DNA from: Mesorhizobium australicum
GTDB taxonomy: Bacteria; Pseudomonadota; Alphaproteobacteria; Rhizobiales; Rhizobiaceae
NCBI RefSeq assembly: GCF_900177325.1
Contig: NZ_FXBL01000002.1
Coordinates: forward strand, 124,001-188,000
Reading direction: 5' to 3'
DNA length: 64,000 nt
Positions 3,940-35,762 of this stretch are shown here, in pieces; position 1 is the stretch's first letter; each line of letters opens with the position of its first letter. Below the pieces are notes generated by a model. That model did no database searches and had not been told where the DNA came from. It saw only the letters and a program-made list of their open reading frames with translations. A program made the translations under genes and the position numbers.

Positions 3940-5490
3940 ATGATTGGGAACATTGAAAGACGCGGTGGAACACTAAAAGTTGGACTCGACGCGGAGGTTG
4001 ATATCATCGACCCGCCGGCATCCTTCGGTGGCTGGAATACGGGGCGTGTTGTTCAACAGATATTCGAAAGCCTTGTAGAGGATGATCTTTCGGCCGAGGG
4101 TTTACCTTACACGCGCCTCGTTCCGGCGCTTGCTGAGAAGTACCATGTGTCGGAGGACGGACGTATCTATACGTTCTCGCTGCGGCGGAATGTTCGATTC
4201 CATGACGGCACACCATTCGATGCCGAGGCGGCCAAATTCAACATTGACAGGATGTGGAATTCCGCTGCGCCACAGTACTCGCCCGTAGCTGCTGACTACA
4301 ATCAGCTTGCAATACAAAGCATCCGTCACGTTGAAGTCGTGGATAGTCATACATTGCAAATTATTCTTAGCGAACCATACGCGGACTTTCTCCGATACAT
4401 GACCCAGGAAGACGCGCCGGGCTCTTTCGTCTTTGTTAGCCCGAGCGCCTTAAAAAAGTATGGGAATGAAGGAATCGCCGATCGAGCGCCTGGCACTGGG
4501 CCGTTCCGATTCAAAGGACGTTGCAGTACCCGCTTCGGAATTGGCGTAATTCTAGAACGCAACGAAAACTATTGGGGTGAGCCTCCGTATCTTGACGAGC
4601 TCATCTTTGTTCCGTTGCCGGATGCTGCAGAGCGGGCCGCGGCATTGGAGCGAGGCGATGTTGACGTTGTCTATGGACCGGATCCTTTTCGTCTGTCGGC
4701 GCTGCGGGAACGCGGCTTTGTGGTCAAGGAGGTAGCAGTCCCTTATCTATGGTACTTCTCTTTCAATATGCGAGAGAGTCCATTAGATGATGTTCGTGTG
4801 AGGCGGGCCATCGCGCATGCGATCAACCGCACGGAACTCAGTAATCAGCTGTTTGGTGAAGCTACCACTGCAGCCGTCGGGATCATTCCCCCAGCTTCAC
4901 CATCCTTCGAGCCGGATTTTCCAGACTACTATCCATACGATCCTTCCAGAGCAAAGGCATTACTCGCCGAAGCTGGCGTTCCCAACGGTTTTCACTTCAA
5001 GATGCTTGTAGCTCGCGCGGGCGGTGAGATTAGTCCGCTGGCGATATGCGATTGGCTAGCGTCTGATCTATCGCAAATCGGCATCACGTCAGAGGTGGAG
5101 GTTCGAGATGACTGGGTATCGTATTGCGAGGAATGGCATCGCGGTATCCCACCCGGCATCGGCGCATCCGAGATGAGCTGGGGAATGTCTTGTGACGTTT
5201 GGCTGGAGCAAGTCTTGCATTCCCGTAACAGTTCGCCAAAAGGCTTTAACACGGGATATTACAATAGGGTCGAAGTAGATCGATTGCTCGACCTTGCCCG
5301 GACTGAACAAGTCGAATTTCGCCGCGTTGAACTTTACCGAATTGCTCACCGTCTAATCATGGAGGATTTGCCAATTCTGCCACTTCTTAACCTTGGGTCT
5401 GGCAATGTCGTCCACGCTCCAAACGTCAAGGGGTTCAAGTTTCCGGCGCAAAACTGGCACGACTTCCGGCAGGTATGGTTGGAGCGATAG
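3940..5490 (+). CDS. Family 5 (peptide/nickel-type) substrate-binding protein lacking a signal peptide, paralogue 1
   Basis: A 516-residue SBP_bac_5 protein of full family length: LKVGLDAEVDIIDPPASF near the N-terminus, FHDGTPFDAEAAKFNIDRMW, the APGTGPFRF region, NENYWGEPPYLDELIF and a C-terminal LIMEDLPILPLL. What is missing is the export signal. The protein starts MIGNIERRGG and the upstream codons in the same frame contain TAA stops at about 3913 and 3922, so no upstream extension can supply a leader. GGAGA at 3929 fits the ATG at 3940. It precedes an exported binding protein and a complete ABC transporter. Close paralogues lie at 40234 and 52854. It would act in the cytoplasm unless exported unusually; a sensor, chaperone or ligand-trap role is only a guess. 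Confidence 0.85.
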   Translation: MIGNIERRGGTLKVGLDAEVDIIDPPASFGGWNTGRVVQQIFESLVEDDLSAEGLPYTRLVPALAEKYHVSEDGRIYTFSLRRNVRFHDGTPFDAEAAKFNIDRMWNSAAPQYSPVAADYNQLAIQSIRHVEVVDSHTLQIILSEPYADFLRYMTQEDAPGSFVFVSPSALKKYGNEGIADRAPGTGPFRFKGRCSTRFGIGVILERNENYWGEPPYLDELIFVPLPDAAERAAALERGDVDVVYGPDPFRLSALRERGFVVKEVAVPYLWYFSFNMRESPLDDVRVRRAIAHAINRTELSNQLFGEATTAAVGIIPPASPSFEPDFPDYYPYDPSRAKALLAEAGVPNGFHFKMLVARAGGEISPLAICDWLASDLSQIGITSEVEVRDDWVSYCEEWHRGIPPGIGASEMSWGMSCDVWLEQVLHSRNSSPKGFNTGYYNRVEVDRLLDLARTEQVEFRRVELYRIAHRLIMEDLPILPLLNLGSGNVVHAPNVKGFKFPAQNWHDFRQVWLER

Positions 5491-5597: not shown

Positions 5598-7154
5598 ATG
5601 AAATTCGTGAAGCTTATCGGATTTATTTTTGCAGCTGTCGCAACCGCATTCATGCTCGCGGGACCGACGGTGGCCGCTCCAGGCGGGATGATAACTTGGG
5701 GAAAACCTTCAGAGGTGCTCTCCACCGACGCACACCTGTCAGCCGATGGCACCTCGTGGACAATGTACTATCTTATCTATGACACTTTGGTCACAACAAC
5801 GGATGACCTGAAAATAGCGCCGGGACTCGCGGAGTCATGGGAGCAGCCCACGCCGACGACGTACATCTTCAAGCTGCGAAAAAATGCGGCATTTTCAAGC
5901 GGCCGCCCTCTGACGTCCGCTGACGTTGTCGGTAGCCTCAAGCGATTGGCGGATCCAAAGTTGGGCAGCTATGCGGGCCGTCAGATTGGCGATGTCAAGC
6001 AGGTCGTTGCACTAGACGATCACACTGTGAAGCTTGAGCTTAAGCAACCAAATACGGCGGTTCTATCCGTTTTGTCTGTCAGCATGACCGCTATCTATCC
6101 TATACAGGAACTAGAGAACGGAACTTTCGATCCGACAAAGGAGATGTTGGGTTCTGGGCCATTCATGGTGGTCGAGCATCGTCAAGACGAATCTTGGACT
6201 TTGGTGCGTAATCCACACTACTGGCGCCAAGGATATCCCATCGTTGACAAGGTGCTTGTTCGAATCATTCAGGATGATGCAGCGCGCCTAGCAGGCTTGC
6301 GCGACGGCAGTGTCGATATTGCGAATTTCGAGAACCCAGATGCAGCTACACTGCTGAAGGGCATCCTCAATGTAGAGCCCATTATTCAGAAGACGACCAA
6401 TTATTTCCGACTCGACGTCAGTGCTCTGCAGGACGACTCGCCATTCAAGGACATCCGAGTACGGCATGCCATGGCTCTTGCCCTTGATCGTCAGCGTATA
6501 GTGGATGCCGTGTTTGGCGGAGAGTCTGCCGTCGATTATGTAGTACCGCAGGCATTCGGTAAGCCAGTTTGCCGAGATCATCCGGACTACGTTACCCCTC
6601 GAGAGAAACGGATCGTCCAGGCCCGGGAGCTATTGCAAGAAGCGGGCGCGGAAAACCTTAAGGTGGGAATCGTTGCCTCATCGGTTCTGGTAACATTTCC
6701 GCTTATCGCGCAAGTCATGAAGGCGAACTTGGCTGATGTTGGGATTGATGCCGAGGTTCAGCAAATTCCAGTGGCTGACTGGTATCAGCGCGTGTTCAGT
6801 GCGAAGACAGACTTTGACTTGGCACTGTCCTGGCTCGCCGGATATTCGAATCCAACTCAGATTCTCTCAAACTGGAATCCGGAGTGGGTAGGGTGGAACG
6901 CCGGGTTCATGACGCCGAGCGCAGAGTACAATAAAGCGGTGAATAAGGTTCGGCAACTTCCAGACGGGCCGGAACGCGATCGCGTTATCGAGCAAGCTTG
7001 CCAGATCATCTACGACCAAGCCAACATGCTTCCCCTGGTCAGTAAGCCCGACTATCTCGGCTATCGAAAGGATAAGATTAAGGCGAGGTTCAGTTCCATT
7101 GAGGGGAATTTCAACACACTGAAATACATCACGGAATTCTCTCGACAAGACTAG
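5598..7154 (+). CDS. Exported family 5 substrate-binding protein of a peptide/nickel-type ABC transporter
   Basis: 518 residues with a clear signal peptide (MKFVKLIGFIFAAVATAFML, cleavage near residue 27 after VAA). SBP_bac_5 features follow: GLAESWEQPTPTTYIFKLR, FSSGRPLTSADVVGSLKRL, LGSGPFMVVEH, NPHYWRQGYPIVDKV and FKDIRVRHAMALALDR. GGGAGG at 5584-5589 precedes the ATG. It is the likely periplasmic receptor for the permeases and ATPases that follow. It is distant from the leaderless protein just upstream, so they are not a simple duplication. The ligand cannot be read from the sequence. Confidence 0.88.
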   Translation: MKFVKLIGFIFAAVATAFMLAGPTVAAPGGMITWGKPSEVLSTDAHLSADGTSWTMYYLIYDTLVTTTDDLKIAPGLAESWEQPTPTTYIFKLRKNAAFSSGRPLTSADVVGSLKRLADPKLGSYAGRQIGDVKQVVALDDHTVKLELKQPNTAVLSVLSVSMTAIYPIQELENGTFDPTKEMLGSGPFMVVEHRQDESWTLVRNPHYWRQGYPIVDKVLVRIIQDDAARLAGLRDGSVDIANFENPDAATLLKGILNVEPIIQKTTNYFRLDVSALQDDSPFKDIRVRHAMALALDRQRIVDAVFGGESAVDYVVPQAFGKPVCRDHPDYVTPREKRIVQARELLQEAGAENLKVGIVASSVLVTFPLIAQVMKANLADVGIDAEVQQIPVADWYQRVFSAKTDFDLALSWLAGYSNPTQILSNWNPEWVGWNAGFMTPSAEYNKAVNKVRQLPDGPERDRVIEQACQIIYDQANMLPLVSKPDYLGYRKDKIKARFSSIEGNFNTLKYITEFSRQD

Positions 7155-7303
7155 AGAGGACAGATATAGATTTTTGTGATCTCAACAACAGGCGGGCTGG
7201 GGGCGGTGTCGTTCAAAAAAGAACCGACCCCACGCATTGCACCACTTGACAGTATCGCGGACGTCCAGATGATCGCTTAAAAAGCGAGTTATTGGGAGTG
7301 GAG

Positions 7304-8269
7304 ATGCAAATCATTCAATACGTAATCGGAAGAGTCCTTGTGGCATTGGCAACAATGCTCGGCGCCTCAATTGTCATCTTTACGGCGGTGAGGATGGTTC
7401 CGGGCGGGTTTGAACAGGTTGTGCTTGGCCCCTTAGCGACGCCGGAGTCCCGTGCTGTTGTTATTGCGAAGTTCGCACTCGATCGTTCGATTATCGAGCA
7501 GTATGGTCACTGGCTGACTGCGGCAACACACGGCGATTTCGGTATATCGATGGTCACCCAAACATCGGTAACCCAAGAGTTGATACGGCGAGCACCGGCC
7601 ACGATCCAACTCGCATTGATGTCTCTGCTCATGGCGCTTTCTATTGGACTGCCGCTCGGAGTCATCTCAGGGTTGACCAATGGCCGCCCCTGGCAACGAA
7701 GTTTGGGGCGGTTCTTAGGAGCACTGGGCGCCAGCATCCCGGACTTCGTTTTGGGAAGCCTGTTCTTGTTCGTCTTTACGGTCTGGTCGTTGGGACTTAC
7801 CATCGGCGGATTCGTTCCATTCTTTGAAGATCCATGGACGAATCTGAGAGCCATGGTTTTGCCTGCTATTACACTAGCCGTCTTCGGGATCGCTCTCATC
7901 CTGAGAACGGCGCGCGATGCGGTAAAAACAGTCATGACGGAGGGATACATAGCATTTGCGGTTGCGTGTGGAGAGCCACCTTCAAGGATCGTTCGTCATC
8001 ACGTACTCCGAAACGCCGCTGTCCCGATCATCACAGTTACTGCAACCTATCTAGGGTATCTTCTCGGCGGTGCCATTGTCGTCGAGGTCCTGTTCTCGAT
8101 CCCGGGCGTTGGCCTCTACACCTACAATGGCTTGATGAATCGTGACTACGCGATTGTACAGGCTGGTGTTCTCGTGGCCGCAGCCGTCTTCATCGCGATC
8201 AACATGATCGCCGACACCATCTATTCATTGCTCGATCCACGAATCAGCGCGCAAAAGAGAGAGATATGA
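7304..8269 (+). CDS. ABC transporter permease, DppB/OppB type
   Basis: 321 residues starting MQIIQYVIGRVLVALATML, a typical DppB-type first membrane segment, with the ATG preceded by GGGAGTGGAG. The family features VRMVPGG, the motif around ALAVAC-GEPPSRIVRHHVLRN (EAA loop that docks to the ATPase) and GGAIVVEVLFSIPGVG are present. A TTG 12 bases upstream is a possible but weaker start. The stop overlaps the next ATG (ATGA), so translation is coupled. Confidence 0.87.
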   Translation: MQIIQYVIGRVLVALATMLGASIVIFTAVRMVPGGFEQVVLGPLATPESRAVVIAKFALDRSIIEQYGHWLTAATHGDFGISMVTQTSVTQELIRRAPATIQLALMSLLMALSIGLPLGVISGLTNGRPWQRSLGRFLGALGASIPDFVLGSLFLFVFTVWSLGLTIGGFVPFFEDPWTNLRAMVLPAITLAVFGIALILRTARDAVKTVMTEGYIAFAVACGEPPSRIVRHHVLRNAAVPIITVTATYLGYLLGGAIVVEVLFSIPGVGLYTYNGLMNRDYAIVQAGVLVAAAVFIAINMIADTIYSLLDPRISAQKREI

Positions 8270-9129
8270 AAAGACGGCTAGCGAGTGCTGTCCGTGGCTT
8301 CGTGAGTTTCGCATGGAATGATCGATTGTCTGGTGTGGCAGCGTTGGTTCTTGTGAGCTTGCTCCTTCTCAGCCTAATCGGACCCTACTTGCCACTAGGC
8401 GACCCGGAGGGGATTGGGGCTGGTCCCCGCCTTGCACCGCCCTCGCTTGAGTTCCCGCTCGGCACCGATGAGCTTGGGCGCTCTTACCTACCCCGGCTGA
8501 TTCGGGGGATCTCTGCTACCTTCCTGCTGGCTACGACTGCTGTCATGGTGACGGCAATCATCGGCGGAGTCACAGGTATGTTGTCGGCCTACAAGGGGGG
8601 ATTCTTTGATGGGCTGGTTGTCCGGATAGCAGACATCTTCTTTGCCTTTCCCATTGTTCTAACAGGACTTCTTGTCACTGCTATAGTAGGGCCTGGAACA
8701 CTTTCCGTGCTTGCGGTAATTGCGTCCGCCACCCTTCCAATGTTCATCCGCTTGGTCCGATCGGTTACATTAGGCATAGCAGCGAGGGGATTCGTAACGG
8801 CAGCGGAGGTAGCAGGCGCTTCAACGACCCGAGTCCTGATCGTTCACTTACTACCCAACATTATGGGCGCAACTGTCATTCAGCTAACCTACGCGATCTC
8901 TATCGGAATGTTGATCGAAGGTGTGCTGAGTTTCCTCGGAATCGGCGTTCAACCCCCTCATGCTTCTCTCGGATCCCTACTAAGACAAGGAGTTCTCTAT
9001 TTGACGGTCGCCCCTTGGATGGTTTTTTCATCGGGTTTTCTTCTGACGCTCGCAATCCTATCGATCAATCTATTGGGTGACGGCTTAAGGGACGCCATTG
9101 ACCCACTTCGAGACCGAGCCCTGCGATGA
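8266..9129 (+). CDS. ABC transporter permease, DppC/OppC type
   Basis: 287 residues; second inner-membrane subunit. N-terminal membrane segment VAALVLVSLLLLSLIGPYL, then PLGTDELGRSYLPRLIRG, which is the hallmark of DppC-type permeases, and the EAA-type loop FVTAAEVAGASTTRVLIVHL. It overlaps both neighbours by four bases (ATGA at each end), indicating a tightly coupled operon. Confidence 0.87.
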   Translation: MKRRLASAVRGFVSFAWNDRLSGVAALVLVSLLLLSLIGPYLPLGDPEGIGAGPRLAPPSLEFPLGTDELGRSYLPRLIRGISATFLLATTAVMVTAIIGGVTGMLSAYKGGFFDGLVVRIADIFFAFPIVLTGLLVTAIVGPGTLSVLAVIASATLPMFIRLVRSVTLGIAARGFVTAAEVAGASTTRVLIVHLLPNIMGATVIQLTYAISIGMLIEGVLSFLGIGVQPPHASLGSLLRQGVLYLTVAPWMVFSSGFLLTLAILSINLLGDGLRDAIDPLRDRALR

Positions 9130-10118
9130 GCGACCTTGTCGAGATTCGAGATCTCCATATCAGCTATGAAACGGCGCGGGGTATCGTCTATGCGCTCGAC
9201 GGCGTAGACCTGACTGTCTATCCATCACAGATACTGGGAATTGTTGGCGAGAGTGGATCGGGGAAAAGTACACTTGGAATGGCTATTGGTCGGCTATTGC
9301 CCTCCAATAGCCTCCGAACCTCTGGGGACCTGTTCGTCAACGGTAAGTCCATTTTTGACATCGGAGACGAGCAGATTCGGCTCCTTCGCCAAACCTCACT
9401 CGGTTTCGTTTTTCAGAACCCGATGAGCACCTTGGATCCGACAATGCGCGTTGGCAGACAGATACGTCTTGTTTTGAATGGACCCGCTTCGGATGATTCA
9501 ATTTATGAGTTGCTTCGAAGAGTTGGCCTGCCAGACGTCAAACGAGTAGCAAGAAGCTATCCGCACCAGCTGTCCGGAGGTATGGCACAGCGGGTCGTTG
9601 TCGCAATGGCCATCTCGAGGCAACCTTCGTTACTGATTGCCGACGAGCCGACAGCATCGCTCGATGCGTCTGTGCGTGAGCAAATCCTAAGACTGCTCCT
9701 TTCAGTTCGCGAAGAGACCGGCGTTGCGATCATTTTACTCAGCCACGAACTTGGCCTCGTTGCTAAATATTGTGACACAATTGCTGTGATGTATGGTGGT
9801 CGTCTTATTGAGGCCGGCTCGAACGTGTCAGTATTTGGTCGTCCAGGCCATCCGTACACAAAGGCGCTACTCGAAGCGGCGCCTGGGAGCGAAAGGCCAG
9901 GCGATTGGCTCGAGGCAATTCCTGGCGTTCCACCAGTACTCCAGAGTTCTGCACATGGCTGTGTCTTTGAACCACGTTGCAAATTTGCGCAAGAGACGTG
10001 CCGGACGGTTCGACCGGCCCTTCGCCCCATCGAGAACCGCTTGGTCGCCTGCCATCGTGCAGAAGAGGTCTTGAGGGCCGAGCCGTCCACCGCAGCCACC
10101 CACGGAAGGATCGCTTGA
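9126..10118 (+). CDS. ABC transporter ATPase, DppD/OppD type
   Basis: 330 residues. Walker A GESGSGKS, Q-loop FVFQNPMSTLDP, signature LSGGMAQRVV, Walker B LLIADEPTASLD and the switch His in LLSHELGLV are all present, followed by the oligopeptide-transporter C-terminal region with a cysteine-rich stretch (GCVFEPRCKFAQETC), which in this family often binds an iron-sulfur cluster or contributes to the interface. It energises uptake with the partner ATPase downstream. Confidence 0.88.
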   Translation: MSDLVEIRDLHISYETARGIVYALDGVDLTVYPSQILGIVGESGSGKSTLGMAIGRLLPSNSLRTSGDLFVNGKSIFDIGDEQIRLLRQTSLGFVFQNPMSTLDPTMRVGRQIRLVLNGPASDDSIYELLRRVGLPDVKRVARSYPHQLSGGMAQRVVVAMAISRQPSLLIADEPTASLDASVREQILRLLLSVREETGVAIILLSHELGLVAKYCDTIAVMYGGRLIEAGSNVSVFGRPGHPYTKALLEAAPGSERPGDWLEAIPGVPPVLQSSAHGCVFEPRCKFAQETCRTVRPALRPIENRLVACHRAEEVLRAEPSTAATHGRIA

Positions 10119-11059
10119 TGAATACGCCAGTTGTAGAACTGGACGGCGTTGACGTCGTCTTTTCCGGCGGGGCATTTTGGGCACGACAGAGAATTCATGC
10201 TGTAAAAGGTGTTTGTTTGTCAATTGAGGAGAACGAGATCCTAGGATTGGTTGGCGAGTCAGGGTCCGGAAAGACGACGCTTGGACGTCTATGTATGGGA
10301 TTGGTCAAACCATCCGGAGGCGACGTTCGGTTCGAAGGAAAATCATTATCCGATCGCCGAGGTCTGGTGCGAGCAGAGCGATCAATTGTCCTGCAGCAGC
10401 CGGAGTGGGCGCTCAATCCGCGTCTGCTTGTCGGAACCTCGGTTTCCGAGCCACTCGATATAATCGGAATAGAATCACGTACGGAGCGAAAAAGGCGGGT
10501 TGTCGAAATGCTGGAACGGGTCGGGCTCGACCGGAGCTTTGCCTCTCGATTTCCGCATGAGCTATCGGGAGGTCAACGTCAGCGGGTGGCAATCGCACGT
10601 GCCTTGATCACGCAACCGAGCTTTATCGTTCTGGACGAGGCGGTCAGTGCGTTAGATGTGTCCGTGCAGACCCATGTGCTAAACTTAATAAAAAAGTTAC
10701 AAGCGGCACAGCGTTTCTCTGCGTTATTCATCTCCCATGACATGGCTGCAACTCGGTATGTCTCGAACCGAATTGCAGTGATGTATGCCGGCGAAATAGT
10801 TGAAATCGCGCCATCTGTGACCTTCTATGAGAAACCACAGCACCCGTATAGCCGAGCGCTTCTCCTCTCGCTGAGGGATCATGAGCGCTCCCAATTTGAG
10901 TTAAAGGTGGCGAATGATCTCATCGCTAAGGACGGCTGCTCGCTGAGCCATCGTTGCGCTTGGGCCGACGATGTCTGTCGTTCGATGAAAGCTGCTATTC
11001 GACCGCTAAACAACGGCAAGGTGGCCTGTCACAGAGCGGAAGAAATAGTCCAGGTTTGA
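10118..11059 (+). CDS. ABC transporter ATPase, DppF/OppF type
   Basis: 313 residues from the ATG overlapping the previous stop (TGATG). Walker A GESGSGKT, signature LSGGQRQRVA, Walker B FIVLDEAVSALD and switch FISHDMAAT are visible, as is a C-terminal cysteine set (CSLSHRCAWADDVC). An in-frame GTG/ATG further upstream would only extend into the previous gene and is rejected. Walker B has DEAVSALD in place of the usual DEPTSALD, a common DppF variant. Last gene of the transporter operon. Confidence 0.88.
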   Translation: MNTPVVELDGVDVVFSGGAFWARQRIHAVKGVCLSIEENEILGLVGESGSGKTTLGRLCMGLVKPSGGDVRFEGKSLSDRRGLVRAERSIVLQQPEWALNPRLLVGTSVSEPLDIIGIESRTERKRRVVEMLERVGLDRSFASRFPHELSGGQRQRVAIARALITQPSFIVLDEAVSALDVSVQTHVLNLIKKLQAAQRFSALFISHDMAATRYVSNRIAVMYAGEIVEIAPSVTFYEKPQHPYSRALLLSLRDHERSQFELKVANDLIAKDGCSLSHRCAWADDVCRSMKAAIRPLNNGKVACHRAEEIVQV

Positions 11060-11802: not shown

Positions 11803-11877
11803 TGGCCTTCCCCCTGAAAACGGGTCCATTTTGAGAGTTAGAGTTTCGGCTATTTTGGGCTTTGAAAGGAGCACGGA

Positions 11878-12156
11878 ATGGCACGGAAGAACTATACTGC
11901 CGAGCAGATCATCGGGATGTTGCGAGAAGCGGAGGTCCGGCTTTCGCAAGGCGAGAAGACCGGTTCGATCTGCCGGGGTCTTGGGATATCGGAACAGAGC
12001 TACTATCGCTGGCGTCGAGAGTATGGTGGCCTGAAGGTGACCCAGGCAGCACGACTGAAAGCTCTGGAGAAGGAGAACGCCCGGCTCAGGAAGGCGGTCT
12101 CCAACCTGACGCTGGATGCTCTGATCCTGAAGGAGGTTGTCGAGGGAAAGTACTAA
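11878..12156 (+). CDS. IS3 transposase OrfA (copy 1)
   Basis: 92 residues: an N-terminal helix-turn-helix ([15 protein letters not shown], then [20 protein letters not shown]) followed by a leucine-zipper-like coil ([20 protein letters not shown]). It binds the element ends and, by a -1 ribosomal frameshift near its 3' end, is fused to OrfB to make the active transposase. Confidence 0.9.
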
Positions 12157-13070
12157 GCCCTTCGCGACGTCGTGCTGGCGTTGCCCATGCGCGTGCGGTG
12201 TTCGGTGTTACCGAGCGCCGTGCATGCCGGGTGGTTGGCCAGCACCGTTCGACCCAGCGCCGGTGTTTGCGGCCCCGCTCCGACGAGAAGCGCCTGACGG
12301 CGGATATTGTCAGACTGGCCTCGATCTACGGTCGCTATGGATACCGCCGCATCACCGCTCTGCTTCGACAGGAAGGATGGACGGTGAATGCCAAGCGGGT
12401 CGAGCGGATCTGGCGTCGCGAAGGGCTGAAAGTGCCGCATAGACAGCCGAAGCGCGGCCGTTTGTGGCTTAACGACGGGTCGTGCACCCGGCTTCGGCCG
12501 ACCCACCGCGGCCACGTCTGGAGCTACGACTTCGTTGCCGATCGCACTCATGACGGCAAGGCCTTCCGGATGCTGACTGTCATTGATGAGTTCAGCCGCG
12601 AGTGCCTGGCCATCCATGTTCAGCGCCAGATCAAAAGCGACGATGTCCTGGCGATACTAGCCCAACTGTTCACCAGGCATGGTCCGCCAGAGCATATCCG
12701 GTCCGACAATGGCAGCGAATTTACCGCCACGGCCGTTCGCGAATGGCTTGGCCGCATCGGTGTGAAGACACTCTACATCGAACCCGGCTCGCCCTGGGAA
12801 AACGGATACTGCGAGAGCTTCAATGGCAAGCTGCGCGATGAACTGCTCAACGGTGAAATCTTCTACACGCTGAAGGAGGCACAGATCGTGATCGAGAACT
12901 GGCGTCGGCACTACAACACTGTCAGGCCGCACAGCTCGCTCGGCTATCTCCCGCCAGCTCCGGAAAGCATCTTGCCCCGCGCCGCTACAATGATCTACGC
13001 TCCGCCCCGGTCAGCCAATCTCGGCGACCATAACCGCCGGAACTCTAACTTATCCGGTGGACCTCCCTAA
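12150..13070 (+). CDS. IS3 transposase OrfB (copy 1), made by -1 frameshift
   Basis: The rve/DDE integrase part, in the -1 frame relative to OrfA with no good start of its own. HTH_21-type region [13 protein letters not shown], then the catalytic D in [11 protein letters not shown] in [10 protein letters not shown] and E in [15 protein letters not shown] are intact. About 300 residues, apparently functional. Confidence 0.88.
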
Positions 13071-19520: not shown

Positions 19521-20528
19521 ATGAGCGGTCTTGGTGGGCTTAATAAATCTCCGAATGGTGTCGTGCTTGGCCTTGTACAGCTTCAGTTACCGAATGTAGC
19601 AACAAAGGAGGATCTTAACGCACAGACTGACAAGATCGTTAGCATGGTTAAGAAGGCACGCAACAATATGCCATCGATGGATTTGGTTGTGTTTCCTGAA
19701 TATTCGCTACATGGCGCATCAATGGATACCAATCCTGAAATTATGTGCTCGCTTGATGGACCAGAGGTAGCAGCCTTCAAAAGGGCTTGCCTCGACAACA
19801 AGATTTGGGGATGTTTCTCCATTATGGAGATGAACCCGGACGGTAATCCATACAATTCGGGGATTATCATCGATGATAGAGGTAAGATTCAGCTCTATTA
19901 TCGCAAGATGCATCCATGGGTTCCCGTGGAGCCATGGGAGCCAGGTAACATTGGAATCCCGATTTGCGACGGACCAAATGGCAGCAAACTTGCTCTTATC
20001 ATTTGCCATGATGGTATGTTCCCTGAAATGGCTCGAGAATCTGCGTATAAGGGGGCGAATATCATCTTGCGTACCGCTGGATATACCGCTCCAATCCGAC
20101 ACGCTTGGCATATAACCAATCAAGCCAATGCCTTTTGTAATCTCGCTTATACAGCCAGTGTTTGCATGGCAGGTACTGATGGCACCTTCAATTCAATGGG
20201 TGAAGGAATGATTGTTAATTTTGACGGTCAACCGATCGTGACTGGCAATGGCATACCAGATGAAATTATTACGGCCGAAGTGCGCCCCGATCTATGCGAC
20301 GAGGCTCGACGCCTATGGGGTGTAGAGAACAACATCTATCAATTTGGTCACCGCGGATTTGTAGCGGTGAAGGACGGTGCGCAGGATTGTCCGTACACGT
20401 ATATGCGTGATTTGATTGAGGGCCGTTACGCTCTTCAGTGGGAGAGCGCGGTTGTGGTCACAGATGGTACCGGTTGCGGTTTCGCGCTTCCTAACCGCCG
20501 CTATGAGTCCGCCCGAAAGCAGCCGTGA
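19521..20528 (+). CDS. amiF: Formamidase (nitrilase superfamily)
   Basis: 335 residues, the size of Helicobacter AmiF (about 334). Hydrolyses formamide to formate and ammonia in the cytoplasm. Catalytic triad by pattern: E60 in VVFPEYSLHG, K129 in LYYRKMHPW and C162 in LIICHDGMFPE. The stretch HPWVPVEPWEPG and the C-terminal GRYALQWES are characteristic of AmiF/AmiE rather than general nitrilases. AGAGGAAGG precedes the ATG. It stands alone, upstream of the folate genes: its product formate is the substrate of the Fhs ligase encoded at 22323. AmiF was chosen over AmiE (acetamidase) because of length and overall resemblance; substrate range is not proven. Confidence 0.87.
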   Translation: MSGLGGLNKSPNGVVLGLVQLQLPNVATKEDLNAQTDKIVSMVKKARNNMPSMDLVVFPEYSLHGASMDTNPEIMCSLDGPEVAAFKRACLDNKIWGCFSIMEMNPDGNPYNSGIIIDDRGKIQLYYRKMHPWVPVEPWEPGNIGIPICDGPNGSKLALIICHDGMFPEMARESAYKGANIILRTAGYTAPIRHAWHITNQANAFCNLAYTASVCMAGTDGTFNSMGEGMIVNFDGQPIVTGNGIPDEIITAEVRPDLCDEARRLWGVENNIYQFGHRGFVAVKDGAQDCPYTYMRDLIEGRYALQWESAVVVTDGTGCGFALPNRRYESARKQP

Positions 20529-20774
20529 CAGGAAAAGTGTTACCTCATAGACGTCTGAACAAACTTATTGAGCGGTGGATATGACGAATGTATTGCGTCC
20601 CTTGATCCTTCCGCGTGGCACATTTGCTAGATAGCTACCAGACACGTAGGTCAAATTCGGGGCCGAAATCGTCGAAATAAGACACAATCAAGAACCAACA
20701 TAAAACATATAATGAGTTCAATTGGCTGGAAAATGTGCTTTCCGGACTCTGTCAGCGCTCCCTGAGAAATACCT
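20529..20774. other. Spacer between formamidase and the folate block
   Basis: No gene or clear terminator identified. It ends at the promoter described next. Confidence 0.4.
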
Positions 20775-20803
20775 TGACAACAATCGAATAAAGAAAATAA
20801 GAC
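20775..20803 (+). promoter_or_regulatory. Strong vegetative-type promoter for the gcvT-like gene
   Basis: Perfect -35 TTGACA at 20775-20780, 17-base spacer, -10 ATAAGA at 20798-20803. Predicted transcription start near 20810, immediately before the first hairpin of the leader. Confidence 0.6.
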
Positions 20804-20809
20804 AACTGG

Positions 20810-20890
20810 TGTGCAGCGGGTAAGCTGCATGGAATTGGGGTATTTGAGGCCCCCGACGGGCGCGGAAGCGCTGTCGGGGGTTTTTGTTTT
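20810..20890 (+). promoter_or_regulatory. Structured leader, candidate folate-type riboswitch/attenuator
   Basis: Hairpin 1: TGCAGC (20813-20818), loop GGGTAA, GCTGCA (20825-20830). Then GGGG (20838-20841) can pair with CCCC (20851-20854). The same C run is the 5' arm of the terminator at 20851-20881, so the two structures exclude each other. A ligand that holds the GGGG/CCCC helix would prevent termination, or the reverse if it favours the other fold. The downstream gene product uses tetrahydrofolate, and alphaproteobacteria have a class of small folate riboswitches (THF-II); membership was not verified. Confidence 0.5.
20851..20889 (+). terminator. Intrinsic terminator inside the gcvT leader
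   Basis: CCCCCGAC (20851-20858) pairs with GTCGGGGG (20874-20881). An inner GCGC/GCGC stem is capped by a GGAA tetraloop, and TTTTTGTTT follows directly. Located about 26 bases before the start codon, hence an attenuator rather than the end of an upstream gene. Confidence 0.75.
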
Positions 20891-20914
20891 GCGGACCAGG
20901 AGGAGAAACCCGCT

Positions 20915-22021
20915 ATGAAAAAGACTCCATTTTACGACAGTGGCCTTGAATATGGGGCCAAAATGGTTGAGCTCTTTGGCTACTACCTGCCTTGGGAATA
21001 CGGCGCCGGACACACGAAAGAGCATTTGGGAACGAGAGAGGGTGTGTCCGTATGCGATCTCGATTACATGGCCGAGTTCGTTATCGAAGGGCCGGACGCG
21101 CTTGGCTTCATCCAGATGCTCGCAACCAACGATTTCTCCAAGAAGACCGTTGGCTCGGTGCAGTACACAGCCATGTGTGACGAGAACGGCCTGATGATCG
21201 ACGATTGCACTATCTGGTGCATGGCCCAGAACAAGTACATGATCATCAGTGGCTCTGAGGACGACTATGAATGGGTGTCGAAACAGGCCAAGAGCTATAA
21301 TGTTACGGTAACCAATGTCACCGACGAGCATACGACGCTTGCCGTGCAAGGGCCGATGGCCAATCGTGTGCTCCAGCAGTTGACGGACATCGATTTGTCG
21401 ACGCTTGGCTACTATCGTTTCCGGCCGGCGAAAATCTCGGGCATCGAATGCTTGGTTGCGCGCATGGGTTACACGGGTGAGGCGGGCTTCGAACTCCATT
21501 TTGCATCGAAAGATGGGGCGACCATCTGGAATCTGGTCATGAATGCCGGCAAGCAGCATAATATAGTTCCATGTGCTCAGGCCGCACTGGAGAGCTTGCG
21601 TCAGGAGGCCGGATATCTCCTGGTGGGAAAAGATCACGATCGCAAAACCAATCCTTTCGAAGCTGGCATCGGGTTCACCGTGAAGTTCTCCAAAGAAGAC
21701 TTCATCGGAAAAGCCGCCTTGCAGAAAATCGCGCGCGAGGGAGTAAAGCGGCGGATGGTTTGGCTTGATATCCCGTCCGGTGACGTGGCTGAGACGGGAG
21801 ACAAGATCTTCGTCGGTGATGTTGAGGTCGGTGCTGTAACCAGTGGATCGTTTTCACCCACCAGAAAGCGAGGAACTGCCATGGCCTACATCAATCCGCG
21901 CCATGCGGTTCCCAGCCTGGATGTGCAAATCGCGCTTGCAAACGGCAAGAAGGCTTCCGCGAAGCTGTCCGTGATGCCGTTGTATGATCCCGGTGATACC
22001 CGCACGAAGAGCTTTGCGTAA
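20915..22021 (+). CDS. GcvT-like tetrahydrofolate-dependent aminomethyl/methyl transferase
   Basis: 368 residues in the GcvT/DmdA superfamily. It removes a one-carbon group from a substrate and passes it to tetrahydrofolate. Visible family parts: LGTREGVSVCDLDYMAEF, VQYTAMCDENGLMIDD, MGYTGEAGFELHF (glycine-rich folate-pocket segment), AALESLRQEAGY and the C-terminal barrel with VGAVTSGSFSPTRKRGTAMAYI. AGGAGGAG gives a strong ribosome site before the ATG. No gcvH or gcvP is nearby, so it is probably not part of a glycine cleavage system and the donor is unknown (for instance an N-methyl or S-methyl compound). Transcription is probably controlled by the attenuator-like leader. Confidence 0.8.
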   Translation: MKKTPFYDSGLEYGAKMVELFGYYLPWEYGAGHTKEHLGTREGVSVCDLDYMAEFVIEGPDALGFIQMLATNDFSKKTVGSVQYTAMCDENGLMIDDCTIWCMAQNKYMIISGSEDDYEWVSKQAKSYNVTVTNVTDEHTTLAVQGPMANRVLQQLTDIDLSTLGYYRFRPAKISGIECLVARMGYTGEAGFELHFASKDGATIWNLVMNAGKQHNIVPCAQAALESLRQEAGYLLVGKDHDRKTNPFEAGIGFTVKFSKEDFIGKAALQKIAREGVKRRMVWLDIPSGDVAETGDKIFVGDVEVGAVTSGSFSPTRKRGTAMAYINPRHAVPSLDVQIALANGKKASAKLSVMPLYDPGDTRTKSFA

Positions 22022-22030
22022 CTTGTCTGA

Positions 22031-22068
22031 TGCTGAAATCTTCCTCTTTCGAGAGGGGGATTTCAGCA
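22031..22068 (+). terminator. Long hairpin after the gcvT-like gene
   Basis: GCTGAAATC (22032-22040) pairs with GATTTCAGC (22059-22067), with an inner CCTCT-TTCG-AGAGG stem. No T run follows, so it may be a mRNA-stabilising hairpin or a weak terminator. Confidence 0.5.
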
Positions 22069-22180
22069 AGGGTGATGACTGCAATCCTTGTGGAAGTCTC
22101 GCTGGCAGACATTGTCGAGCCTATAAGTTTTTATTTCGCCCCTGGTGACTTTGTGAACTGATCCATTCAGGCTTAGATTC

Positions 22181-22230
22181 GCCGGGATAAGTGTTGCGGT
22201 TTGCACGTAGTTGTGGAGCCATATCCCGGC
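22181..22230 (+). promoter_or_regulatory. Structured leader before fhs
   Basis: A perfect 9-bp stem, GCCGGGATA (22181-22189) with TATCCCGGC (22222-22230), encloses about 32 bases that can themselves fold (GTG...CAC). A second hairpin (TCCCG-CGCCG-CGGGA) follows about 20 bases later. It resembles an aptamer closed by P1, but no known class was matched. Confidence 0.4.
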
Positions 22231-22322
22231 TTGCTCCGCTTCCCGCGCCGCGGGACGGAAGGCACCTCGTTTCTAGTAAGACCATAGCCCTTCAAATCCA
22301 CAATCAGCCGAGGAAGAATCCC

Positions 22323-24002
22323 ATGGCGGAAGTAAAGAGCGACATCTCGATAGCGCGCGCAGCGAAGAAGAAGCCGATCCAGGAGGTTGGCGCGAAGATC
22401 GGCATTCCGAGCGAGCATTTGCTGCCTTACGGGCATGACAAGGCCAAGGTCTCGGCCGACTTCATCAAGTCGGTGCAGAAGAACAAGGACGGCAAGCTGA
22501 TCCTTGTGACGGCGATCAACCCGACGCCGGCTGGCGAAGGCAAGACGACGACGACGGTTGGCCTGGGCGACGGCTTGAACCGCATCGGCAAGAAGGCGGT
22601 GATCTGCATCCGCGAGGCCTCGCTCGGTCCGAACTTCGGCATGAAGGGCGGCGCTGCCGGCGGCGGCTATGCCCAGGTCGTGCCGATGGACGACATGAAC
22701 CTGCACTTCACCGGCGACTTCCACGCCATCACCAGTGCGCACAACCTTCTGTCGGCGCTGCTCGACAACCACATCTACTGGGGTAACGAGCTCGGCATCG
22801 ACACCCGCCGCGTGGTGTGGCGCCGCGTCATGGACATGAACGACCGCGCGCTGCGCGAGATCGTGGTGTCGCTGGGCGGCGTTGCCAACGGCTATCCGCG
22901 CGAGGCCGGCTTCGACATCACCGTTGCTTCGGAAGTCATGGCGATCCTGTGCCTTGCCAAGGACCTGAAGGACCTCGAAAAGCGCCTCGGCGACATCATC
23001 GTTGCCTACAAGCGCGACAAGAGCCCGGTGTTTGCGCGTGAACTGAAGGCGCACCGCGCCATGGCGGTTCTCCTGAAGGACGCCATCCAGCCGAACCTTG
23101 TGCAGACGCTGGAGAACAACCCGGCCTTCGTGCATGGCGGCCCGTTCGCCAACATCGCCCACGGCTGCAACTCGGTGATGGCCACCACCACCGCCTTGAA
23201 GCTCGGCGAATATGTCGTGACCGAGGCCGGCTTCGGCGCTGATCTCGGCGCGGAAAAATTCTTCGACATCAAGTGCCGCAAGGCTGGCCTGAAGCCTGCC
23301 GCCGCCGTCATCGTGGCCACCGTGCGCGCCATGAAGATGAATGGCGGGGTGAAGAAGGAGGACCTCGGGCCTGAGAATGTCGAGGCGGTGAAGAAGGGCT
23401 GCCCCAACCTTGGCCGCCACATCGAGAACGTGCACCAGTTCGGGGTTCCGGTGGTGGTTGCGATCAACCACTTCTATTCCGACACCGATGCCGAGATCGC
23501 GGCGCTGAAGGCCTATGTCAAGGAGCAGGGTGCGGAAGCGATCCTGTGCAAGCACTGGGCGCATGGCTCGGCCGGCATCGAGGAGCTTGCGAAGAAGGTG
23601 GTCGAGATCGCCGAGGGCGGGGCCTCGCAGTTCGCGCCGCTCTATGGCGACGACCTTGGCCTGTTCGACAAGATCGACACCATCGTCAAGCGCATCTACC
23701 GCGGTTCGGAGGCGATTGCCGACAAGTCGATCCGCGACCAGCTGCACCAGTGGGAGAAGCAGGGCTACGGCAATCTTCCGGTGTGCATGGCCAAGACGCA
23801 GTATTCGTTCTCGACCGATCCGAACCTGCGCGGTGCGCCGACCGGCCACACCGTTCCGGTGCGCGAGGTTCGCCTTGCCGCCGGCGCCGGCTTCGTCGTC
23901 GCCATCTGCGGCGAGATCATGACCATGCCGGGCCTGCCCTCCAAGCCGTCGTCCGAGAACATCCATCTCGACGACAATGGCGACATCGAAGGCCTGAGCT
24001 GA
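22323..24002 (+). CDS. fhs: Formate-tetrahydrofolate ligase
   Basis: 559 residues. ATP-dependent joining of formate to tetrahydrofolate, giving 10-formyl-THF, in the cytoplasm. The P-loop region [51 protein letters not shown] and C-terminal [10 protein letters not shown] are family hallmarks. Start ATG 22323 ([18 protein letters not shown]) was chosen over the longer open frame because the homology begins here. folD follows after 26 bases. Codon use is visibly GC-rich compared with the amide genes around it, suggesting a different origin within the island. Linked in function to the formamidase, which makes formate. Confidence 0.93.
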
Positions 24003-24028
24003 CAACGGGAAAGCGAGGAAATTTGCCC

Positions 24029-24928
24029 ATGGCTTCTGTAATAGACGGCAAGGTTGTAGCGGCGGATGTGGTTGCCAAGGTTAAGGCTGAGGCGGACAAG
24101 CTTATCGCCGAGACGGGCGTTGTGCCCGGCATTGCGGTGGTCATCGTCGGCCATGATCCTGCCAGCCAGGTCTATGTCGCGTCGAAGGGCAAGAAGGCCA
24201 AGGAATGCGGCTTCAACTCGATCGAACATGCGCTGCCGGCTGAAACCAGCGAGGAAGAGCTGGTGGCGGTGGTCGAGAAGCTGAATGCCGATCCGGCCAT
24301 CCACGGCATCCTCGTGCAGTTGCCGCTGCCGGGCCACATCGATTCCGGCCGCATCATCCAGACGATCGCGCCGGAAAAGGACGTCGACGGCTTCCACTTC
24401 ATCAATGTCGGCAAGCTCGGCACCGGCGAACTGGACACCGCCTTCGTGCCGTGCACGCCGGCCGGCTCGATGCTTTTGATCGAACGCGCGCTTGGCCGCG
24501 ATCTGTCGGGGCTGAGCGCGGTCGTGGTCGGCCGCTCCAACATAGTCGGCAAGCCGATGGCCAATCTGTTGCTCAACGCCAATGCCACGGTGACGATCGC
24601 GCACAGCCGCACCAAGGATCTGCCAGGCCTGTGCCGCAGCGCCGATATCCTGGTTGCCGCCGTTGGTCGTCCCGAGATGATCAAGGGCGACTGGGTCAAG
24701 CCAGGCGCCACTGTCATCGACGTCGGTATCAACCGCTTGCCGGCGGACGCCAACGGCAAAGCGCGGCTTGTCGGCGACGTTGCCTATGACGAGGCCGCGA
24801 CCAATGCCGGTTCGATCACCCCGGTGCCGGGCGGCGTCGGTCCTATGACCATCGCACTCCTGATGGCCAACACCGTCATCTCCGCTTCCCGCGCCGCGGG
24901 GCGGGCCTTATCTCTTGGCGATAGCTGA
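24029..24928 (+). CDS. folD: Methylene-THF dehydrogenase/methenyl-THF cyclohydrolase
   Basis: 299 residues. Interconverts 5,10-methylene-, methenyl- and 10-formyl-THF. Conserved blocks: [13 protein letters not shown] (the Lys region of the active site), [50 protein letters not shown] (NADP pocket) and [16 protein letters not shown]. Together with Fhs and the GcvT-like protein it makes a complete one-carbon set able to run in either direction. Confidence 0.93.
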
Positions 24929-24942
24929 CGTCGATTAAGGCA

Positions 24943-25575
24943 ATGCAGCCACAAGTGGCGCAGTTTCCACGAATTCGTCTGGTGCTCGTCGAACGCAATC
25001 AGTTGGTGCTATCGGCATTGCAGCACATATTCGCTCACGATGACCGGTTCGAACTGACTGGTCACGTAGAAAGCGGCCAAGCCTTTCTCGAAATGATCGA
25101 AATCAATCGGGCGAATTTCGATATTGCCATTATCAGCTCCAAATTAGCTGACATGAACGCTGCAAAACTGCTGACGGAACTGCGACACCGGGAGGTTGGG
25201 ATACGCATCGTCATTTTCTCAAACGACATCGGAATCCTCAAGCAGTGCTTGCATCTCGGCGCCCACGGCTTCTGTTACCAGTTCGATGATCCTGCAGTAC
25301 TGCTAGATACGTTGATCGCAGTGGCTCACGGCCATCTTTGTATCCCGCACACCGACATGGCCAAAATCCATGAAACACCGTTATCAACATTGACGCCGCG
25401 TGAAATTGAACTGCTCGGCGTTCTGGCGAACGGATGGACCAACCTACAAATCGCAACCAGAATGGGTATCTCCGAGAACACGGTCAAATACCATTTAAGG
25501 AATCTCTATGACAAAATCGGCGTCCATAACCGGGCCGCCGCAGTTGCCTTATTCTTTGCTGGTATCCAACGTTAA
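24943..25575 (+). CDS. LuxR/NarL-family regulator with degenerate receiver
   Basis: 210 residues: receiver-like domain 11-125 and a LuxR helix-turn-helix at about 147-208 (LTPREIELLGVLANGWTNLQIA, then GISENTVKYHLRNLYDKIGV). In the receiver the phospho-acceptor position is S65 (DIAIISSKL where LLD-R-M is usual) and the acidic pair near the N-terminus reads VERN, so phosphorylation is unlikely. The HTH is intact. It is 14 bases after folD and upstream of the urtA leader. A truncated relative with matching downstream noncoding sequence is at 60621. It may regulate the amide operon or the folate genes by ligand or protein binding. Confidence 0.82.
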   Translation: MQPQVAQFPRIRLVLVERNQLVLSALQHIFAHDDRFELTGHVESGQAFLEMIEINRANFDIAIISSKLADMNAAKLLTELRHREVGIRIVIFSNDIGILKQCLHLGAHGFCYQFDDPAVLLDTLIAVAHGHLCIPHTDMAKIHETPLSTLTPREIELLGVLANGWTNLQIATRMGISENTVKYHLRNLYDKIGVHNRAAAVALFFAGIQR

Positions 25576-26073: not shown

Positions 26074-27379
26074 GGACGCCTCGAACTACCCGGATTTCGG
26101 CGCTGGTAGGACGGAGATGAGGTCTGGCGCGGCCTGATGCGCGGCGATTGCTTCGGTTTTGGTCTTTAGGCCGGCGCAGGGCGCCGATTTTGGCGTTGCG
26201 ACGGCGGTTTTCGCCGCTCACGCGGTCATGCGGACGCAGTTCGCCCCTCGTGCCAGACGAAGCGGGTGAGATTGTAGGCGAGATTGGCCATGCCGATCTT
26301 GGTTCTGGCGCGGGCGATACCGATGGTGCGGACGAACAGGCCCATCCTGGACTTCTGCTGGGCGAAGACGTGCTCGACGAATGCGCGGGTTTTCGATCTC
26401 CGACCATTGGCCCGCGACGTCGCCTCGCTCATCGGCCGACCTTTCGGCTTCTTCTGATGAATGTCGGAAACGTAGCCGTTCTTCTCCAGCCACTCCTCGT
26501 TCTTCTTCGAGCGATAAGCCGTGTCGGCCCAGACCGTCGAACTGGTGTTGTTCTTGTCGAGCACATTGCGGAGCTGGGCGCCGTCATAGGCCGCCGCGCT
26601 GGTGACATTCCAGCCACGGATGAGGCCGTGCCGGCGATCGATCGAGGCATGGTTCTTGTAACCGAAGGCGGGAATGGCGATGTCGCGCGGTTGCGGCTTT
26701 CCATCCTCGGCCGCCTTGGCCTTCGAGAACTTCACCGTCCAACGCGCATCGCGATCCTTCTGGCGCAGCTTCGCGGGCTTGTCTTTCCACTCGTCCGGTA
26801 TCTTGCCCGCTTTGATGTCGGCCTTCTCGGCATCGGTGTTTCGCTGCTTCGGCGCCGCCACGATGGTGGCGTCGACAATCTGACCGCCCATGGCAAGATA
26901 GCCGGCCCTGGTGAGGTGCTTGTCGAAACGGGCGAACAGGTTCTCCACCGCGCGGGCTTGTGTGAGATGCTCGCGGAACAGCCAGATCGTCTTGGCATCA
27001 GGCACGCGATCGCCCAGCCCCAACCCGAGAAAACGCATGAACGAGAGCCGATCCTGGATCTGGAATTCGGCCTGATCATCCGACAGACTGTAAAGCGCCT
27101 GCAACACCATGATCTTGAACATCAGCACCGCATCGTAGGGCGGCCTGCCGCCCTTGGCGCCGTCGGAGCGTTTCAGCGCCTTGGCCAACGGCTTTCGGAA
27201 AACCTCCCATGGCACCACCGCGTTCAGCTTTTCCAGAGGATCGCCCGCCTCGCTCAGTCGAGCATACCGCTCGTCAATGTCCCAAAACCCGGCCTGTCCC
27301 CGCATCCATCCCCTCCCGGCAAATCACCGGGGCAGTGAATCATCCCGAGCCGTCAATGGCGAGGTTTTTCGAGGCGTCC
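26074..27379 (-). mobile_element. IS5-family element, copy 1
   Basis: 1306 bp with terminal GGACGCCTCGAA / TTCGAGGCGTCC inverted repeats and a GACT target duplication (26070-26073, 27380-27383). It looks identical to copy 2 (48793-50098), so both are recent. Confidence 0.93.
26226..27305 (-). CDS. IS5 transposase (copy 1)
   Basis: 359 residues. DDE transposase: QIVDATIVAAPKQRN (first Asp), VWADTAYRSKK (second Asp), SKTRAFVEHVFAQQKSRMGL (Glu). Complete and apparently functional. The long open frame on the opposite strand is a shadow caused by GC-rich codons. Confidence 0.92.
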   Translation of the reverse strand: MRGQAGFWDIDERYARLSEAGDPLEKLNAVVPWEVFRKPLAKALKRSDGAKGGRPPYDAVLMFKIMVLQALYSLSDDQAEFQIQDRLSFMRFLGLGLGDRVPDAKTIWLFREHLTQARAVENLFARFDKHLTRAGYLAMGGQIVDATIVAAPKQRNTDAEKADIKAGKIPDEWKDKPAKLRQKDRDARWTVKFSKAKAAEDGKPQPRDIAIPAFGYKNHASIDRRHGLIRGWNVTSAAAYDGAQLRNVLDKNNTSSTVWADTAYRSKKNEEWLEKNGYVSDIHQKKPKGRPMSEATSRANGRRSKTRAFVEHVFAQQKSRMGLFVRTIGIARARTKIGMANLAYNLTRFVWHEGRTASA

Positions 27380-28613
27380 GACTGCGCTATGGACCGGAGG
27401 AGCCATTGCCGAGGACAATCCCATTGTGTTGGGCATTCCGGTCGGCTTAAGCGGCGCAAATAGCATCGTAGCTCCGTCAATGGTTCAGGCGGCCGAACTT
27501 GCAGTCTCCGAAATCAACGCTGCAGGGGGGATTTTAAGCAGAAAGCTCGCCCTGGAAGTTGCCGATGATGGATCCGGTGCCGCAGGGGCTCAAAAAGCAT
27601 ATGACTCCCTGGTATTCCAAAAGAAAGTGGATGCCATAGCTGCTATGGAGACGACTGCAGCTCGCAATGCAGGATTGCCAATCATTACTAGGGGAAAAAT
27701 CCCTTATATCTATAGCTCTTTTTACGAGGGTGGTTCCTGCAATAAGTATCAGCACATAAACGCATGGGTGCCACAGCAAATGGTTTCACTCATGGTCGAC
27801 TACTTCATGAAAGATCAAGGTGCGAAAACATTCTTTCTTGTCGGTAGTGACTATGCTTTCGGTCGTGGACTCCTCGGTGACACCAACAAATATATTACGG
27901 AGAAAGGCGGCACGGTCGTTGGTGAAGAATACAATCCGATGGACGCGAACGATTGGACGGCAATCATCAGCATGATCCGGGCAGCCAATCCCGACGTGAT
28001 CTTGACCTCTACCGCGGCCGGTGCACCGAACGTTACCTTTACGAAGCAGCTTCGCTCAGCTGGTATAACTGCAAAGTATGGGAATTATGCATTGGATGAA
28101 GGTACAGCGAAGACTTTGGGTCCTGATGCTGAGGGAATTTATCTTGGTGGAACATACTACACTAGCATCGATTCGGAGAAGAATGCGCAGTTCCTGAAGG
28201 CAATGAAGGAGAAGTTTGGCACGAAAACAGAAACGCCTAACGAACTCTCCGTTCCTCTATATGATGCCGTTCATCTCTATGCCCTGTCGGTGGTAAAAGC
28301 CGGCACGACAGACACGGATGCCGTGGTCAAAGCTCTAAGTGAAGTAACTTTTGATGGTCCGAGGGGACCTGTGCAAATGTCGAAACAACGGCACGCCCCA
28401 CTGACAATGTATCTCGCACAGGTGAATGCTCAAGGCGACACGAGTATTATAAAATCCTACCCGAATGTAGTCCTGGTGATCAATGCCCTGATCTGTGAAT
28501 GGGTGGGCGGCATGTCTTACCATGCTGCCTATTAATTTTGGCCTTCCCCCTGAAAACGGGTCCATTTTGAGAGTTAGAGTTTCGGCTATTTTGGGCTTTG
28601 AAAGGAGCACGGA

Positions 28614-28892
28614 ATGGCACGGAAGAACTATACTGCCGAGCAGATCATCGGGATGTTGCGAGAAGCGGAGGTCCGGCTTTCGCAAGGCGAGAAGACCGGT
28701 TCGATCTGCCGGGGTCTTGGGATATCGGAACAGAGCTACTATCGCTGGCGTCGAGAGTATGGTGGCCTGAAGGTGACCCAGGCAGCACGACTGAAAGCTC
28801 TGGAGAAGGAGAACGCCCGGCTCAGGAAGGCGGTCTCCAACCTGACGCTGGATGCTCTGATCCTGAAGGAGGTTGTCGAGGGAAAGTACTAA
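28614..28892 (+). CDS. IS3 transposase OrfA (copy 2)
   Basis: Same 92-residue protein as in copy 1: HTH plus leucine-zipper-like coil. Confidence 0.9.
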
Positions 28893-29806: not shown

Positions 29807-29821
29807 TGGGGCAGGCCAGTC

Positions 29822-29921: not shown

Positions 29922-29933
29922 TCGGAGACGTAG

Positions 29934-35753: not shown

Positions 35754-35762
35754 GAGCGATTC

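Follow-up and report, generated by a model that had tools for sequence, protein, structure and literature searches.

Family 5 solute-binding proteins (Pfam SBP_bac_5, PF00496) are normally exported and belong to importers of the Dpp, Gsi, Nik and Cnt types. Cytoplasmic use of the SBP_bac_5 domain is known from SgrR-type regulators, in which it lies behind a DNA-binding domain, and AmiC of the AmiC–AmiR amidase regulator is reportedly a binding-protein relative kept in the cytoplasm. A further point of comparison is provided by urease operons of the urtABCDE plus ureDEFG type. Here, we analysed a stretch of 64,000 nucleotides from Mesorhizobium australicum (assembly GCF_900177325.1, contig NZ_FXBL01000002.1, positions 124,001 to 188,000, forward strand; hereafter ‘the window’), which holds three SBP_bac_5 genes whose products lack an export signal, hereafter ‘leaderless’:

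3940–5490, + strand: leaderless SBP_bac_5 protein, copy A; intact, 516 amino acids; first branch of the leaderless clade
40234–41789, + strand: leaderless SBP_bac_5 protein, copy B; last gene of a urease operon, split by a frameshift
52854–54407, + strand: leaderless SBP_bac_5 protein, copy C; intact, 517 amino acids; AlphaFold2 model with pLDDT 88.4 and pTM 0.89

These proteins belong to a clade in which the export signal appears to have been lost once in a family 5 lineage, and the constant companion of this clade is a mobile, atypical urease operon, not AmiR. An earlier note on this DNA had pointed to three full-length family 5 proteins without leaders, each with an in-frame stop shortly upstream, and had held that loss of the signal in three copies is not accidental. 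Indeed, copies A and C (274 and 242 bits, respectively, against a Pfam cut-off of 32.4) start directly with the mature domain, Met being separated from the upstream in-frame stop by only six open codons, and copy B is likewise leaderless, with four open codons upstream. All three thus lack a leader, but only A and C are full-length, copy B being divided by a frameshift in a run of G into pieces 40234–40917 and 40857/40914–41789. A record of Mesorhizobium sp. Root552 (L035), 99.9% identical to the copy B region over 6.9 kb, has a premature stop elsewhere instead of the frameshift, so that copy B is broken in both records. The window is part of contig C2 (196 kb), and the genome as a whole (5.86 Mb) yields 30 SBP_bac_5 matches, which represent 29 genes. 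Six of them are leaderless, three in the window and three on a 232-kb contig (C3; L012, L014 and L017), and form one sequence group (52–91% identity in the pairs compared), whereas in each of the other 23 the domain is preceded by a hydrophobic stretch resembling a signal (best 11-residue Kyte–Doolittle mean of at least 1.36). Export signals were judged by this mean and by eye, the weakest of the 23 cases being inspected by eye. Confined in this way to one group of genes, the absence of leaders goes beyond chance.

Two conserved peptides served as seeds for a scan in which each species was represented by one genome; of the 27 loci returned, one (L057, 28% identity) was dropped. The remaining 26 family members (48–100% identity) come from hosts including Mesorhizobium, Microvirga, Paracoccus, Roseovarius, Oricola, Pseudomonas, Cupriavidus, Aquabacterium, Marinobacter, Alcanivorax and Salinicola. 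The core LRVALDWxVD starts 5–11 residues after the nearest ATG, the one taken by the script, in 32 of 32 extracted members; alternative start codons occur further up in a few (31 codons in L038, 101 in L053). We also picked 26 loci at which the leaderless gene is immediately preceded by a ureF or amiR of the same orientation. The end of this preceding gene lies between 4 bp past and 39 bp before the leaderless start, so close that no room is left for a signal peptide. The best 11-residue mean at the N-terminus is at most 1.06 in 31 leaderless rows versus at least 1.66 in 49 exported relatives. The latter come from 51 loci searched out as next-nearest relatives: 50 of them show a signal- or anchor-like stretch (49 measured, L091 judged exported by eye, and L103 anchor-like rather than typical), and the 51st, L107, is leaderless itself. 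Scored with a profile built from 31 members, leaderless genes without breaks reach 846–939 bits, against 440 bits or less for every other match listed in three genome samples (398, 385 and 394 genomes, with at most three candidates per genome given a score).

In a tree of 31 leaderless and 23 exported rows, the latter a subset of those found, the leaderless rows make up a single clade (support 100/100), whose earliest branches are copy A, its sister on C3 and a Root552 copy. The exported sister group is unsure because some exported rows have long branches. Copy B, L035 and L040 (broken), L056 (cut) and L036, L044, L055 and L062 (copies or near-copies) were omitted from the alignment. Across seven pairs of leaderless genes dN/dS is 0.07–0.17, i.e. 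purifying selection, and long invariant blocks run through the 31 aligned rows, although one of these, YMTQEDA, was also a search seed, so that its invariance is partly built in. The phylogeny that the earlier note had proposed as a check thus yields a leaderless clade of single origin under purifying selection, and where signal peptides in close homologues would have spoken against the idea, the closest homologues turned out to be leaderless too. From these sequences, we strongly infer that the leaderless proteins stay in the cytoplasm.

Copy B closes a urease operon that occupies positions 27426–41789 of the window:

27426–28535, + strand: UrtA-like binding protein of the operon importer (Peripla_BP_6); no start codon occurs where the signal would be encoded (frame 27339–28535), which suggests a damaged 5' end
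28598–29806: transposase gene between urtA and urtB, with integrase-core matches, 402 amino acids
29934–30770, + strand: UrtB-like permease
30763–32586, + strand: UrtC–UrtD fusion, permease plus ATPase
32593–33306, + strand: UrtE-like ATPase
33344–34045, + strand: ureAB, fused urease gamma and beta subunits
34038–35753, + strand: ureC, urease alpha subunit; Ser at the flap position (MVSHNL), Cys in the chromosomal control
35763–36383, + strand: ureG
36390–37223, + strand: ureD
37227–37721, + strand: ureE, GNxH motif kept
37714–38421, + strand: ureF
38435–39607, + strand: AmiC-like type I binding protein (Peripla_BP_5), without a signal-like stretch
39619–40221, + strand: AmiR-like ANTAR antiterminator, ending 12 bp before copy B

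Like the urtABCDE plus ureDEFG operons, this one encodes a UreC above the cut-off of the TIGR01792 equivalog (813.9 bits versus 680) and the full accessory set, UreD, UreE, UreF and UreG. It differs from them by the fused ureAB, the fused urtCD, the flap Ser and the extra leaderless gene. Aligned with jack bean urease, the operon UreC keeps the visible His and Lys motifs, and its flap Cys is replaced by Ser. This Ser is found at 27 of the 27 operon-type loci read, several of them near-identical (25 loci plus L060 and Roseovarius). Cys is the usual urease residue at this position, in agreement with 13 other UreC proteins read alike, 12 of which have Cys (L069, L139–L141 and L144–L151); the thirteenth, the second UreC of the window, has Gly. 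The GNxH motif is kept in all 17 aligned UreE proteins. We considered the leaderless protein as a replacement for UreE, since UreE_C is unmatched in the window copy, yet the invariable GNxH led us to reject this; of five further UreE proteins, four match UreE_C weakly and one of them above the cut-off.

The association extends well beyond Mesorhizobium. In five plasmid records (Aminobacter SR38, Enterobacter hormaechei, Ancylobacter polymorphus, Paracoccus yeei and Comamonas antarctica), the leaderless gene directly follows ureF or the amiC–amiR pair of the same operon. The order there is Urt-type importer, fused ureAB, ureC, ureG, ureD, ureE and ureF, with amiC–amiR in four of the five and a nitrilase-family gene in four; in C. 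antarctica, the importer genes come after the leaderless gene. Of the 26 named loci of the species scan, 22 are flanked, within the sequence retrieved, by ure genes of the operon. In the 23rd case, Roseovarius L052, these genes lie approximately 13 kb off on the same scaffold, and the idea of a urease-free lineage in Roseovarius, based on a 21-kb locus devoid of such genes, was abandoned, as the urease on that scaffold is of the flap-Ser type. The exceptions are L036 and L039, both from Root552 and equivalent to copies C and A, and L056, in which the gene is cut by the contig end and urt genes are present. Besides the broken L035, Root552 has another operon end, in which the leaderless gene is unbroken (L034, 3678–5231; 74% identity to copy C).

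Among 72,556 plasmids, the leaderless gene was retrieved in 18 records (48–76% identity, the next record listed being at 36%) and an operon-type UreC in 17 (70–100%, the next at 58.8%), with 142 records below 60%; the best 40 of 108 records were listed for the former and the best 60 of 159 for the latter, the totals per identity band coming from the search tallies. All 17 plasmids with an operon-type UreC hold the leaderless gene, versus at most one of the 142 with another UreC. Both genes lie on the same strand, 2.7–4.5 kb apart where the record start does not intervene. The 18th plasmid, p035_A-VIM-1 (L152), keeps ureG, ureF and the leaderless gene, an IS26 before ureG cutting the operon. 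At the level of the family, a UreC of at least 71% identity is present in only two (G000 and G998) of 388 genomes, and the same two hold the leaderless gene among 394 genomes, the two samples being not exactly the same. The urease operon was also noted on enterobacterial plasmids with resistance genes, namely p035_A-VIM-1 and pKPN1481-1 (L153), the latter with an IS26 before cut importer genes.

AmiR does not share this constancy. The earlier note had rightly placed one copy beside amiR, and the leaderless gene directly follows amiR at nine of the 26 loci (window, Mesorhizobium and Aminobacter), with overlapping start and stop codons in five. However, in a group of 12 Paracoccus, Oricola, beta- and gammaproteobacterial genomes, some of which may be incomplete drafts, only four were found to have AmiR_N on the contig that holds the leaderless gene; the other eight comprise seven genomes devoid of any match and one in which a different contig gives a match below threshold. 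No AmiR was found in the 31.5-kb region of the complete Enterobacter plasmid (L059) either. The urease genes remain in these cases, so that partnership with AmiR, as the note had suggested, was rejected as a general rule. The broader suggestion of a class of cytoplasmic sensors or ligand buffers fares better in part: a cytoplasmic ligand-binding role fits the leaderless clade, but the tie to AmiR and AmiC does not hold throughout. As the AmiC-like protein also has no signal-like stretch, the products of a single operon seem to include two binding proteins that are cytoplasmic yet come from different Pfam families, Peripla_BP_5 for the AmiC-like protein and SBP_bac_5 only for the leaderless one, which also occurs without AmiR. 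The AmiC-like protein (38435–39607) scores 317 bits against the UrtA model, whose cut-off is 493. According to a passage in a survey of binding proteins, approximately 1% of the proteins retrieved by binding-protein profiles are predicted to be cytosolic, and the AmiC–AmiR structure is cited there for proteins of this kind (PMC9602780).

The leaderless protein is predicted to adopt a complete two-lobed fold of the Dpp/Nik type. No other Pfam domain, including DNA- or RNA-binding ones, was detected in the leaderless proteins (Pfam search, E 0.001), which are thus a binding-protein domain alone, in contrast to SgrR. In an alignment with Escherichia coli NikA, whose nickel-complex site we take to be R97, W100, R137, W398, Y402 and H416, one of the six residues is matched (W398); H416 falls in a gap and R137 corresponds to Gly in 31 of 31 rows. 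Three members score 130, 162 and 113 bits against the NikA model TIGR02294, far below its cut-off of 393, and the score against the GsiB model is 179 bits for a cut-off of 594 (both NCBIfam). Similarly, of the two DppA residues changed in entry 8z1z (precursor numbering, from its title), Arg383 falls in a gap and Asp436 stands opposite a Trp, in an alignment that is locally unsure. A thiolate metal site built from conserved cysteines was discarded, as Cys417 and Cys369 vary in the larger alignment and only Cys395 is invariant. Residues specific to the clade are the YMTQEDAP stretch, Cys395, Asp418, Gln423 and His426. The leaderless protein differs from the exported proteins of Dpp, Gsi, Nik and Cnt importers in lacking the signal peptide and in these residues and scores; in the urease operons, the importer is of the Urt type.

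Taken together, we regard it as about an even prospect that the leaderless proteins serve the mobile urease system as a dedicated accessory that binds a putative ligand in the cytoplasm and has a putative partner. The computed part of this reading comprises the signal-less clade, purifying selection, the predicted fold, the last-gene position and joint occurrence with the flap-Ser urease. The protein would remain in the cytoplasm and close on a small molecule, either imported by the operon's importer or made from its substrate, which may be a nitrogen compound, urea-like or an amide; once closed, the protein might then act on urease or its assembly proteins and so couple uptake to urease activity. 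As the leaderless family follows the flap-Ser urease and sits with importer genes even without an adjacent intact operon, we favour a cytoplasmic binder of the imported compound, its product or an effector. A more daring version, which we offer tentatively and consider clearly less probable, would make it an unrecognized ligand-responsive urease accessory: a periplasmic-type peptide/nickel binder recruited to the cytoplasm, which would bind the imported substrate or an effector and switch or direct a flap-Ser urease that takes compounds instead of, or in addition to, plain urea.

Two rivals assign the protein another partner, and we judge both unlikely, to a similar degree. A sensor acting on AmiR, or on transcription otherwise, in the manner of AmiC would explain the loci at which the two genes adjoin or overlap, and AmiC provides the precedent of a binding-protein relative at work in the cytoplasm; yet AmiR is missing from the contig in two-thirds of the 12 genomes and from the Enterobacter region, the operon already has an AmiC, and no DNA- or RNA-binding domain was found. 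A cytoplasmic carrier or store of nickel chelates, resembling NikA or CntA and feeding nickel to UreE and UreG, agrees poorly with the single match among the NikA residues, with the presence of a UreE that keeps its GNxH motif, and with copies A and C, which lie beside importer genes with no intact urease operon adjoining. Because the family does not follow AmiR, for which AmiC is the expected sensor, because most of the Dpp/Nik ligand residues checked are absent and because UreE is present, we prefer binding of a substrate or effector over nickel supply.

It seems more improbable still that the gene is a passive passenger, i.e. a former transport gene caught in the operon, with nothing specific to do or only buffering metabolites. 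No role established by experiment was found, and some copies do decay: copy B is broken in two near-identical records though the preceding ure genes are open, and the copy at L040 is split. These cases also weigh against a dedicated urease component, as do the other unbroken paralogues in the genome of the window, the lack of an intact urease operon directly beside copies A and C, and the fact that tight operon linkage may reflect joint transfer instead of joint mechanism. Low dN/dS values, long invariant blocks and retention of the gene on 17 of 17 plasmids with an operon-type UreC are nonetheless hard to reconcile with a passenger. Least probable is a protein that is still periplasmic, owing to an unrecognized export route or a misread start. 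Family 5 proteins are normally exported, and the frame stays open for at least 40 codons upstream in L038, L053 and L060; however, these open stretches show no hydrophobic core by eye, most members have close upstream in-frame stops, and the 26 selected loci have a ureF or amiR that overlaps the start or stops no more than 39 bp short of it.

Among the matches listed in open PubMed Central papers, we found no description of this operon or of a leaderless family 5 binding protein in a urease operon. Cytoplasmic reuse of binding proteins is itself already known, as for AmiC; what would be new here is the family, and the setting, in which a binding protein has become cytoplasmic. Within this large family of peptide and nickel binders, a whole clade seems to have abandoned the periplasm in a single event and joined a transferable urease system, carried by environmental and enterobacterial plasmids, some with resistance genes. 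The leaderless protein thereby becomes a possible new partner of urease that can be put to the test, and it draws attention to an unusual urease in which Ser takes the place of the flap Cys. The database label ‘ABC transporter substrate-binding protein’ is probably misleading for these proteins.

The surroundings of copies A and C in the window comprise:

743–2915, + strand: another ureC, divergent and with Gly as the flap residue, and a cut ureG
5598–7154, + strand: exported-type SBP_bac_5 protein, directly after copy A
7292–11059, + strand: four genes for Dpp-type permeases and ATPases, after copy A
51443–52603, + strand: second UrtA-like binding protein; N-terminus signal-like, copy C following directly

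Urease operons have a Urt-type importer with its own binding protein, and copy A precedes a Dpp-type importer that likewise has one. The pairing of urtA and copy C recurs in Mesorhizobium Root157 (L031). The second ureC, present at 743–2440 and at C2:118751–120442, is 53–55% identical to the operon type. Positions 746–2915 are an exact 2,170-bp copy of C2:118270–120439, adjoined by an IstB-type gene at 28–609; a fixed urease neighbour for copy A was therefore rejected, the upstream ureC and ureG belonging to the duplicate and providing no evidence. For the sister of copy A on C3, no ure gene was found in the preceding 17 kb. In the region L063, 10773–18658, this sister lies downstream of a GCV_T gene, and upstream open reading frames resemble, by eye, formaldehyde dehydrogenase and S-(hydroxymethyl)glutathione synthase.

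Upstream of the urease operon in the window (19521–25575) lie genes for a carbon–nitrogen hydrolase (19521), a GCV_T aminomethyltransferase (20915), FolD (23546) and a LuxR-type response regulator (24943). The operon of Aminobacter plasmid pSR3, on which one copy of the leaderless gene was found, is flanked, by annotation, by FolD, formate–tetrahydrofolate ligase, response regulator and formaldehyde genes. Such one-carbon genes nearby hint, as a speculation, at a substrate carrying a one-carbon group. Finally, a transposase gene at 11862–13070 gives the same integrase-core matches and scores as the one within the operon, both encoding 402 amino acids, and Mu/Tni-type transposase and TniB genes at 61013–63551 may form a transposition module.
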